A stretch of DNA of 37,599 nt from Bacteroidota bacterium (GTDB lineage Bacteria > Bacteroidota > Bacteroidia > Sphingobacteriales > Sphingobacteriaceae): assembly GCA_029851965.1 (NCBI GenBank), contig JARKUW010000143.1:1-37599 (forward strand). Direction: 5' to 3'. Numbering within the stretch: position 1 is the stretch's first letter; every line of letters begins with the position of its first letter. The notes beneath the pieces are model-generated. The model saw only the letters and a list, made by a program, of their open reading frames with translations, did not search any database and was not told the DNA's origin. Below are positions 4,422 through 11,046 of this stretch, one piece after another. The translations under genes and the position numbers were made by a program.

Positions 4422-4460
4422 GGCTTTATGGTTTTAAGATTATTTGTTGTTTTTTGTAAT

Positions 4461-4489
4461 TAAGACGCCATCACAGCAGAAACGTTTCA
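4461..4489 (-). promoter_or_regulatory. ECF-sigma-type promoter of GIN gene A
   Basis: Read on the minus strand: TGAAACGTTT, 12 bases, CGTCTTA. The AAC and CGTC cores are separated by exactly 16 bases, the spacing known for many ECF (group 4) sigma factors. The same arrangement stands before GIN gene C. The predicted leader is about 30-35 bases. No ECF sigma gene lies in the window, so the cognate factor is encoded elsewhere. Confidence 0.65.
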
Positions 4490-4521
4490 CTCAAAACCGG
4501 GGTAATATACCAGCACGAGGA

Positions 4522-4556
4522 GCCTTTAGACCAACGCCTGTAATCTCTCGACGAAC
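4522..4556. repeat. 35-bp perfect repeat, copy 1 (upstream of GIN A)
   Basis: Identical base for base to 11012-11046, in the same orientation and at the same distance (about 100 bases) before its GIN gene. It begins GCCTTTAGACC and ends CTCGACGAAC. The sequence between repeat and promoter is less well conserved than the repeat, so it may be a regulator site rather than passive duplication. Right of the repeat the two loci diverge abruptly. Confidence 0.9.
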
Positions 4557-4570
4557 GGATTCATCCCATA

Positions 4571-4589
4571 AGCGTTGTCGACCAACGCT
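4571..4589. repeat. Inverted repeat AGCGTTG-N5-CAACGCT
   Basis: A 7-bp perfect inverted repeat just right of the 35-bp repeat. Its right arm with flank (GACCAACGC) repeats a word found inside the 35-bp repeat, hinting at a related protein-binding site. There is no T-run, so a terminator is unlikely. It is absent from the second GIN locus. Confidence 0.35.
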
Positions 4590-4685
4590 GCCATCCACTT
4601 GACTCAATTTAGCTACGAGAAACCTCAATTCGGTTATATGCGCTTGCGGTGAGTTGGCCACCTTTGGGATCTAATAAAAAGAATA

Positions 4686-5003: not shown

Positions 5004-5921
5004 ATGAAAAAATCAGGAAGTTCAGTCTATAAACTTGACTCTTTAACCGACTTTCACCGGATGTTTGGACTTCCAAAGCCCAAACATCCCCTGATCAGCT
5101 TCATGGATATCAGCCAGATGCAATTTGCACCAGAAACGCTGCCGCGCCTGCTGTCGATGGATTTCTACAAAGTGGCTTTTAAGACCAATACATGCGGAAA
5201 AGCGAAATATGGGCAGAGCTATTATGACTTTGGCGAGGGAGGGCTTGTTTTTACTTCACCTGGTCAGGTGTTTGAAAGCCCGGATAGGTCTGCTGTTACC
5301 GGCAATATTCTATTGTTTCATCCGGATCTTCTGCTTGCTTATCCACTGTCAAGAAAAATAAAACAGTATGGCTTTTTCTCCTATGCTGCAAACGAAGCGT
5401 TGCAATTGTCAGATCAGGAAAGAGGGACGATCATGAATGTATTCAGCATCATTGATGAGGAATTAAACAGCCGGATAGATGACTTTAGCCAGGACGTGAT
5501 TGTCTCGCAATTGGAGCTGCTGCTCAACTACAGCAATCGCTTTTACAAGCGGCAGTTTATTACCCGTAAGGCTGTTAACAATGACCAGTTGCAGAAGCTG
5601 GAAGAAATTTTGGATGATTACTTCCGTGAGGAAAAAGCGATCACGGCGGGCGTTCCTACGGTTCAATACCTTGCAGAGCGGTTGAACCTGTCTCCAAGTT
5701 ATCTGAGTGATATGTTGCGTACGTTAACCGGTCAGAATGCACAACAGCTTATTCATCACAAACTGGTTGAAAAGGCAAAGGAGATATTGTCGGCTTCAGA
5801 ATTATCGGTTGCTGAAGTCGCCTATCAACTGGGCTTTGAACATCCTCAATCCTTTAGCAGGCTGTTTAAAGCGAAAACGGAGCAGTCGCCACTTGAATTT
5901 AGAGCTTCCTTTAGCCGTTAA
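5004..5921 (+). CDS. AraC-family transcriptional regulator, copy 1
   Basis: A 305-residue regulator. The N-terminal ~185 residues are a cupin-like sensor region of a type common in Sphingobacteriaceae (DFHRMFGLPKPKHPLISFMDIS near the start, LLFHPDLLLAYPLSRKIKQYGFFSY in the middle). The C-terminal ~100 residues carry two helix-turn-helix motifs, with PTVQYLAERLNLSPSYLSDMLR and the signature SVAEVAYQLGFEHPQSFSRLFKAKTEQSPLEFR. It is a clear paralogue of the regulator at 8683-9600, with long shared stretches throughout. It lies downstream of a broken NmrA-like gene, which may have been its original target or partner. Its stop codon lies in one arm of an inverted repeat shared with the convergent HxlR gene. 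The effector is unknown. Confidence 0.92.
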   Translation: MKKSGSSVYKLDSLTDFHRMFGLPKPKHPLISFMDISQMQFAPETLPRLLSMDFYKVAFKTNTCGKAKYGQSYYDFGEGGLVFTSPGQVFESPDRSAVTGNILLFHPDLLLAYPLSRKIKQYGFFSYAANEALQLSDQERGTIMNVFSIIDEELNSRIDDFSQDVIVSQLELLLNYSNRFYKRQFITRKAVNNDQLQKLEEILDDYFREEKAITAGVPTVQYLAERLNLSPSYLSDMLRTLTGQNAQQLIHHKLVEKAKEILSASELSVAEVAYQLGFEHPQSFSRLFKAKTEQSPLEFRASFSR

Positions 5922-8663: not shown

Positions 8664-8682
8664 TTAATTGTTATCTTTAGTT

Positions 8683-9600
8683 ATGAAAAGTGAAATGCAG
8701 AAAATCAGTAAACTGGAGTCCATACCGGAAATGCACCGTATGTTGGGGATTTCCGGCCCTGTTCATCCATTGATCACGCTGATCGATCGTGCGAACGGGC
8801 AGATCGACATGTCCCGCCTACCAGCGAGCTATGTTTCCGGTTTCTATAAGATCTCTTTTATTTCTAAACTGGGCGGAAAGTTCAAGTATGGCCAGGGCTA
8901 CTATGATTTCAATGAAGGCAGTCTTTTGTTCACGGCACCAAACCAGGTTGTAGGCGGTGTGGGAAGCTACCGGGATAGTGAAGGTTATTCGCTGATCTTC
9001 CATCCGGATTTCCTGCAGGGCTATCCATTGGCGAGGAAGATTAAGAATTACGGCTTTTTTTCTTATGCGATCAATGAGGCGCTGCACCTATCGGAACAGG
9101 AAAGATCGACTATGCTGGCGATCTTTAGCATTGTAAGGGAAGAGTTAAACAGCCGGCTTGATGATTTTAGCCAGGAGGTGATTATCTCCCAGATTGAGTT
9201 GCTGCTGAGTTATTCCAAACGTTTTTACAAGCGTCAGTTCTTGACGCGGCAGGCTGTTGCCAGTGATCTGCTTCAGCAACTGGAAGATCTGCTAAATGGC
9301 TATTTTGAAGAGGAGGCGGCTGCTACACATGGCATACCGACGGTACAATACCTTGCAGACCGGTTGAACTATACGCCCAATTATCTAAGTGATATGCTTC
9401 GTTCGGTTAGCGGACTGAATGCGCAACAGCATATCCATTTAAAGCTGATTGAAAAATCCAAGGAGCTGCTGTCCGGCACCAACATGACCATCAGCGAAGT
9501 TGCATATGAATTGGGCTTTGAACATCCGCAATCCTTCAGCAGGCTTTTCAAATTGAAAACGCAGGTGTCGCCAGTGCAATACAGATCCGCTTTCATTTGA
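8683..9600 (+). CDS. AraC-family transcriptional regulator, copy 2
   Basis: A 305-residue AraC regulator paralogous to the one at 5004. The ORF-track start (8668) is TTG; the ATG at 8683 gives the same length as copy 1. Shared blocks include IPEMHRMLGISGPVHPLITLID near the N-terminus, LDDFSQEVIISQIELLLSYSKRFYKRQF in the middle, and the HTH region PTVQYLADRLNYTPNYLSDMLR plus ISEVAYELGFEHPQSFSRLFKLKTQVSP. It sits directly downstream of an SDR gene, as copy 1 sits downstream of an NmrA-like remnant, so each regulator accompanies an oxidoreductase and abuts a GIN cassette. The effector is unknown. Confidence 0.92.
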   Translation: MKSEMQKISKLESIPEMHRMLGISGPVHPLITLIDRANGQIDMSRLPASYVSGFYKISFISKLGGKFKYGQGYYDFNEGSLLFTAPNQVVGGVGSYRDSEGYSLIFHPDFLQGYPLARKIKNYGFFSYAINEALHLSEQERSTMLAIFSIVREELNSRLDDFSQEVIISQIELLLSYSKRFYKRQFLTRQAVASDLLQQLEDLLNGYFEEEAAATHGIPTVQYLADRLNYTPNYLSDMLRSVSGLNAQQHIHLKLIEKSKELLSGTNMTISEVAYELGFEHPQSFSRLFKLKTQVSPVQYRSAFI

Positions 9601-9663: not shown

Positions 9664-10275
9664 CTAGTTCGACGCGGTCATTACAGCTGGATCTGCTTTC
9701 ATCATTTCCTCGGAAGCATATGATTCTGATTTCAAGCTGGAGAAGTTACCTGTTTTCAGGTTTTTCATGTTGCTGGCCACCAGGGTACTTTGATCTGCAG
9801 TACCGTCCAGTTTCAATATCGCATCATCTTTTACGACGGTATATAAACTTTTTGCCGTTGTCTTGATCCTGGCGGATGCGGTATGGCTTAGAAACAACTG
9901 AAGGTACTTAACATCGAATTTGTTGCTGGTTACGACCACTGAGCCCCCGTACGCTTCCACTCTTTCCAAATCTTTCATTGTGATGTTTAGCGTCACCAGT
10001 TCTGATTCTGCAGAGTGGATGTAGAGTGTTTTTCCGTTTGTCACTACAGATGTCCTAGAGGGATTGTAGTTTTCTGTGCCAAATACGTTCTGCTTGTCAC
10101 CTTGCGTTAATACAATCTTCACATTTCCACTTACCCAGATTCTGTTGAAGGTAAGAGCGGGACGAGGTGTAACCTGGGATGGTACAGGCTCCGCTGCGAA
10201 GGTTGTTGCCACTGATGAGGTTAGTATTACCGCTGCTACTGCTGCTGCGAATAATGTTCTGGCTAGGTTTTTCAT
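9664..10275 (-). CDS. Secreted GIN-domain (DUF2807-like) protein, copy B
   Basis: A 203-residue paralogue of GIN A and C, aligning without gaps. The signal peptide (MKNLARTLFAAAVAAVILTSS..., cleavage after TFAA) and the NRIWVSGNVKIVLTQGD hallmark are present. It is the most diverged of the three in the middle (HSAESELVTLNITMKDLERVEAYGGSVVV). The gap to GIN C upstream is only 25 bases with no promoter, so it is read as the second gene of a C-B operon and ends at the hairpin 9619-9641. Function unknown. Confidence 0.85.
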   Translation of the reverse strand: MKNLARTLFAAAVAAVILTSSVATTFAAEPVPSQVTPRPALTFNRIWVSGNVKIVLTQGDKQNVFGTENYNPSRTSVVTNGKTLYIHSAESELVTLNITMKDLERVEAYGGSVVVTSNKFDVKYLQLFLSHTASARIKTTAKSLYTVVKDDAILKLDGTADQSTLVASNMKNLKTGNFSSLKSESYASEEMMKADPAVMTASN

Positions 10276-10950: not shown

Positions 10951-10979
10951 TAAGACGCCTTCCCACGAAAAACGTTGCA
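10951..10979 (-). promoter_or_regulatory. ECF-sigma-type promoter of the GIN C-B operon
   Basis: On the minus strand TGCAACGTTTT then CGTCTTA, with AAC and CGTC again exactly 16 bases apart. The leader ACAAAAAACAACAAA and the CATAAAGCC before the ATG are also shared with GIN A. Confidence 0.65.
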
Positions 10980-11011
10980 GGCAAAAAGGAGATAATATAC
11001 GATCATGAGCG

Positions 11012-11046
11012 GCCTTTAGACCAACGCCTGTAATCTCTCGACGAAC
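11012..11046. repeat. 35-bp perfect repeat, copy 2 (upstream of GIN C)
   Basis: Identical to 4522-4556. Its right end marks the point where similarity to the GIN A locus stops; the next bases belong to a gene tail with coding character (11034-11135). Confidence 0.9.

Follow-up and report, generated by a model that had tools for sequence, protein, structure and literature searches.

The secreted GIN proteins of Pedobacter are probably transcribed from a composite promoter, in which a regulator of the LytTR class would bind tandem half-sites and act on an ECF-type promoter lying at a fixed distance downstream. Read from sequence, this genus-wide LytTR/ECF site, which would control both the secreted GIN family and a putative small RNA, is a new combination of parts whose kinds are known. 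The preliminary description of this DNA did not recognise the combination as a described regulon, and we likewise found none in the literature open without subscription on GIN/DUF2807, on LytTR in Bacteroidetes, on the ECF consensus in Bacteroidetes and on Pedobacter sRNAs.

The window, that is, the whole stretch of 37,599 nucleotides analysed, is contig C194 of a Pedobacter MAG (3.37 Mb, 79% complete). Its three GIN proteins score 46.4, 41.4 and 50.1 bits (GIN A, B and C) against the profile PF10988 (DUF2807, 'head GIN domain'), for which the curated cut-off is 24.2 (Table 1). DUF2807 has been brought together with other models under the name Toastrack, a domain with recurrent links to genes of two-component systems, LytTR proteins and sigma factors (PMC11237479). 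The Toastrack domains of phage-shock-like systems are sub-membrane domains fused to transmembrane parts, whereas the Pedobacter proteins stand alone and have a signal-peptide-like start. The GIN A and GIN C loci are duplicates (75% protein identity). Because GIN B follows GIN C so closely and has upstream of it no promoter of the GIN A/C kind, the two genes appear to form a single operon. Between the GIN loci lie two paralogous AraC-type regulator genes (5004–5921 and 8668–9600) with ~76–80% DNA identity in parts, and these may have been duplicated together with the GIN loci.

Table 1 Features of the two GIN loci in the window (positions are those of the window)
Feature	Positions	Strand	Basis
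GIN A, secreted DUF2807 (head GIN domain), 203 aa	3810–4421	-	PF10988 E 4.9e-12; signal-peptide-like N-terminus (from sequence)
ECF-type promoter, GIN A, TGAAACGTTT...CGTCTTA (AAC 4486–4484, CGTC 4467–4464; AAC-N16-CGTC core 4486–4464)	4461–4489	-	genus-wide conservation
Degenerate third repeat, GIN A, GCTGGTATA, in phase 21 bp after repeat 2	4506–4514	-	conserved at +42 to +51
35-bp block, GIN A (half-sites 1 and 2 with spacer)	4522–4556	-	same as 11012–11046
LytTR-like half-site 2, GIN A, GTTGGTCTA	4527–4535	-	sequence
LytTR-like half-site 1, GIN A, CCGTTCGTCGA, AlgR core CCGTTCGTC inside	4548–4558	-	AlgR core from PMC4064291
Extra out-of-phase half-site GCGTTGGTCGA, GIN A only; short palindrome GCGTTGGTCGACAACGC (4573–4590), 30 bp upstream of block	4578–4588	-	sequence
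GIN B, second gene of C-B operon	9664–10275	-	PF10988 E 1.6e-10; 25 bp after GIN C
GIN C, DUF2807, 203 aa	10301–10912	-	PF10988 E 3.6e-13
ECF-type promoter, GIN C, TGCAACGTTT...CGTCTTA (AAC 10976–10974, CGTC 10957–10954; AAC-N16-CGTC core 10976–10954)	10951–10979	-	sequence
Degenerate third repeat, GIN C, GATCGTATA	10996–11004	-	position by phase
35-bp block, second copy	11012–11046	-	sequence comparison
LytTR-like half-site 2, GIN C, GTTGGTCTA	11017–11025	-	sequence
LytTR-like half-site 1, GIN C, GTTCGTCGA	11038–11046	-	sequence

The identical 35-bp block reported earlier upstream of GIN A and GIN C is the same at all 35 of its 35 bases. It forms a sharp island, since its flanks match far less well: the stretch between the block and the -35 element (4491–4521 at GIN A) matches at 21/31 bases, so that it has indeed drifted more than the block, and the 64 bases upstream match at 16/64, near chance. 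Within the host assembly, 79% complete at 3.37 Mb, the 35-mer was located at the two GIN loci and at no third place, so it is not a widespread unrelated repeat, the outcome that had been named as telling against its role.

Going beyond what had been described, the sequence identifies the block as a direct repeat of the LytTR/AlgR type, GTTCGTCGA-N12-GTTGGTCTA, with an exact period of 21 bp and a degenerate third copy. Counted on the minus strand, 5' to 3', from the first G of half-site 1 as 0, GTTCGTCGA is at 0, GTTGGTCTA at 21, the degenerate GCTGGTATA at 42, the AAC of TGnAACgTTT at 70, GTCTTA at 90 and the ATG at ~134. A set of 40 homologous GIN genes was gathered by protein similarity alone and the upstream regions were then read. 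The half-site pair at period 21, which is the LytTR-operator arrangement of 9-bp direct repeats ~12 bp apart, is found in 37 of the 40 promoters (shuffled mean 0.02); the other periods from 14 to 29 each gave between 0 and 4.

Across GIN paralogues with 24–38% protein identity the half-sites and their exact period are constant and the bases between them drift, which upholds the proposal that the block is a conserved regulator site and not leftover duplication. It is hardly credible that the identity of the block is a mere trace of the recent duplication of the GIN locus: GIN A and GIN C are duplicates, and outside the motif the 35-mer does include bases whose identity is peculiar to this pair, but the genus-wide constancy of half-sites and spacing among such distant paralogues refutes this explanation for the half-sites; for the remaining bases of the 35 it may be correct.

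The third place of the repeat bears on a different alternative, that of two independent promoters in tandem, one sigma70-like, with TGGTATAAT as extended -10 and the second repeat in the place of the -35, and the other the ECF promoter, 25 bp downstream. TGGTATAAT does resemble an extended -10, ~19 bp after half-site 2. We nevertheless consider this very unlikely, as TGGTATAAT keeps the 21-bp phase expected of a third repeat; the third place is a true GTTGGTCTA or CATGGTCTAAT in other promoters, and elsewhere a full GTTGGTCTAA or TGGTCTAATG; the ECF core shifts by exactly 21 bp when the third repeat is missing; and a fixed offset of 25 bp would be needless for two independent promoters. The sigmaA of Bacteroidota, moreover, prefers TAnnTTTG to TATAAT. 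The extended -10 was thus set aside, and the full repeats in other promoters together with the 21-bp movement of the core argue that TGGTATAAT is a degenerate third repeat, which would be bound by the regulator and not serve as a -10 box.

The ECF-type core (AAC-type -35 and CGTC-type -10, ~16 bp apart) is present in 39 of the 40 protein-selected homologues, and a reversed-pattern control gave 0 matches. In an alignment of 87 sites, conservation is strong at TGcAACnTTT and GTCTTA but not in the spacers; the columns of these two elements had no part in choosing the sites, which was done on columns 0–6, 21–27 and 45–50, where conservation is no evidence. The two-part promoter of ECF form that had been proposed therefore finds support genus-wide in columns unused for site choice. 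The AAC-N16-CGTC core ascribed to both loci is present at each, but its distance from the ATG, given as equal, is 65 bp for GIN A and 64 bp for GIN C. The distance from half-site 1 to the AAC is nearly invariant: an ECF core is recognised at 120 of the 140 distinct sites, and there the distance is 70 bp in 112, 69 bp in five, 71 bp in one and 49 bp in two. The two sites at 49 bp (70 - 21) are without the third repeat, and the last repeat remains 28 bp from the AAC.

These observations support, at the level of sequence, the reading of an ECF promoter plus activator site, and from the shared elements a single ECF factor is likely to serve both GIN loci, as had been suggested. No ECF gene was found under an ECF-type promoter of its own; the MAG has 16 Sigma70_r4_2 genes and the 12 examined have no strong promoter match nearby. 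An ECF core without the repeats precedes GIN-like secreted proteins of a second family, ~243 aa in length (L111, which is on the host's own contig C121, L112, L115, L117 and L121).

When the genus was scanned for the repeat together with GGTATA, 45 of 61 Pedobacter genomes proved to have sites, and the reversed pattern had no match. The full pattern occurs in 12/14 Pedobacter genomes against 0/107 genomes of other Sphingobacteriaceae, where a diverged form is possible. In four genomes (loci L346, L347, L348 and L351), tandem GTTsGTCGA repeats without an ECF core stand before a gene for a small membrane protein, which by sequence resembles DUF2752, followed by a TM2-like gene.

The repeat also recurs before a LytS/LytTR operon, as well as before the small RNA considered below; neither was part of the earlier account. 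On host contig C231, genes for a His_kinase (PF06580) protein and a Response_reg-LytTR protein form an operon preceded by GTTCGTCGG-N12-GTTCGTCGA. Orthologues of this core operon are found in 60 of 61 Pedobacter genomes at 63–89% identity, with the next paralogues at no more than 41%; the remaining genome (G021) has pieces only. Upstream of it, GTTsGT(A/C)GA-N12-GTTsGT(A/C)GA with a score of at least 17/18 is present in 50/50 genomes, confined to period 21 save for one exception at period 20, whilst the 20 paralogous kinase operons all fall below it, some of them having a 21-bp variant of their own, such as GTTGGGATA. In the complete genome G009, the single GIN-like site at the 20 LytTR loci examined is that of the core operon.

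Sequence thus makes the core operon the best candidate for the regulator of the GIN block. It stays a candidate because its sites are often GTTGGTAGA, with A at position 7 where the GIN sites have C, and given this difference the GIN genes could be regulated by another LytTR paralogue. A regulator encoded beside the GIN genes was considered and rejected: LytTR genes do adjoin GIN genes in a few genomes, but they are paralogues of the core-operon gene. Another LytS-like kinase operon (L412, L419–L423) has its own 21-bp tandem site, similar to GTTGGGATA-N12-GTTTGGAATA, and such variants suggest that LytTR half-sites in Pedobacter may be paralogue-specific.

The closest known parallel is in Pseudomonas aeruginosa, where AlgR, a LytTR regulator, acts with the ECF sigma AlgU at algD (PMC4064291). 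The 9-bp AlgR core, CCGTTCGTC, is identical in the distal half-site of GIN A, a match to a proven LytTR site (PMC4064291); GIN C has CAGTTCGTC. In both systems a LytTR regulator and an ECF sigma would meet on one promoter with the regulator operon tied into the circuit, although on the Pedobacter side this is predicted. The geometry differs: the AlgR sites at algD are far apart (-470, -394 and -45) and are thought to loop (PMC4064291), whereas the Pedobacter GIN promoters have two or three sites in strict 21-bp tandem at a fixed distance from the -35. The Pedobacter regulator operon also departs from the AlgR circuit in having the repeat and lacking the ECF core.

LytTR repeats elsewhere have the form 9 bp-12 bp-9 bp and are often autoregulatory (PMC6193735). 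HdrRM, AgrA, ComE and PlnC share with Pedobacter the 9-bp direct repeats 12 bp apart upstream of the -35 and, by prediction on the Pedobacter side, autoregulation through the same repeats (PMC6193735); they differ in having housekeeping promoters, where Pedobacter has an ECF-type target and a possible third repeat. The promoter-proximal repeats of AgrA are centred near -60 (PMC4227749), close to the position of the Pedobacter repeat. Counting against the comparison, the usual repeat-to--35 distance of LRS promoters is 10 bp, unlike the ~18–21 bp of the Pedobacter GIN promoters.

The LytTR identity of the binder is one that we infer, and the repeat might instead serve a repressor as its operator, or a regulator outside the LytTR class that likewise has tandem sites two turns apart, the ECF sigma alone switching the promoter on; the GIN-like genes that have the ECF core and no repeat indicate that the core may suffice. 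We regard this as rather unlikely in view of the match to the AlgR core, the 9-12-9 architecture, the copy of autoregulatory type at the LytTR operon and the placement of the repeat upstream of the -35 (about -100 to -50), which is typical of activators. In the activation mechanism that we prefer, the protein bound to the two or three half-sites would be a LytTR response regulator in its phosphorylated form, most likely the one encoded by the C231 operon. The half-sites are GTTsGTC(G/T)A, and their recurrence every 21 bp, or two helical turns, would set the regulators on one face of the DNA. The final half-site, 28 bp before the AAC of the ECF-type promoter (TGCAACgTTT / CGTCTTA), would allow contact with the ECF sigma–RNA polymerase, and this contact would raise transcription of the secreted GIN (DUF2807) proteins, presumably in response to an envelope-related signal.

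Some repeat/ECF sites have no ORF downstream and lead instead into a stretch of ~120 nt (loci L142, L133, L155 and L123 among them), variable in its 5' part and with an invariant AGTTTAGTTTTAGTTAATGAT and a terminator hairpin at the end. Twenty promoter-bearing sequences have the features of a terminated small RNA, namely a promoter of their own, conserved sequence, a hairpin with a T run and no ORF. In 27/27 genomes compared, one and the same ABC-F gene follows the element on its strand at a distance of 179–436 nt; the host genome as assembled (3.37 Mb, 79% complete) lacks the element. Rfam yielded no family at E 1, the one match being weak, unrelated and at chance level. The anti-seed ATTAACTAAAACTAAAC is not enriched in G009 (10 matches, and 18 for the reversed pattern); one match with 1 mismatch lies upstream of a SusC-like gene, too little for a target claim.

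Six genomes differ in that this promoter and the RNA element are separated by a GIN ORF, which makes the promoter-to-element distance ~780–798 nt, compared with 151–236 nt without the ORF. For this reason the putative RNA appears to be the 3' end of an mRNA that has been retained. Other GIN genes, too, have related elements at their 3' side; GIN A and GIN B of the window have no such end. The ABC-F gene tree requires six changes between ORF-bearing and ORF-less states; at least two of these are imposed by well-supported branches, whereas many forks are weak and the ORF-bearing rows are short. The simplest reading of these sequences is repeated loss of the ORF with the RNA kept, a direction that we infer. 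Quite possibly, then, the 3' end of the GIN mRNA is a regulatory RNA of the LytTR/ECF response that has several times become a free-standing sRNA, in place beside the ABC-F gene, by loss of the ORF between a shared promoter and terminator. Like known 3'-UTR-derived sRNAs, the putative RNA retains a single-stranded conserved stretch and the terminator hairpin of the mRNA; unlike them, it is without the ORF in most genomes and stands free under what would be the old mRNA promoter.

The orphan family of secreted GIN/DUF2807 proteins would thereby become the predicted output of a defined circuit, made up of a kinase/LytTR operon, an operator, an ECF-type promoter and a partner RNA. The arrangement suggests a joint of fixed geometry between LytTR activation and ECF polymerase, otherwise known mainly from algD, and the ABC-F locus apparently catches in the act a path from the 3' end of an mRNA to a free-standing sRNA.
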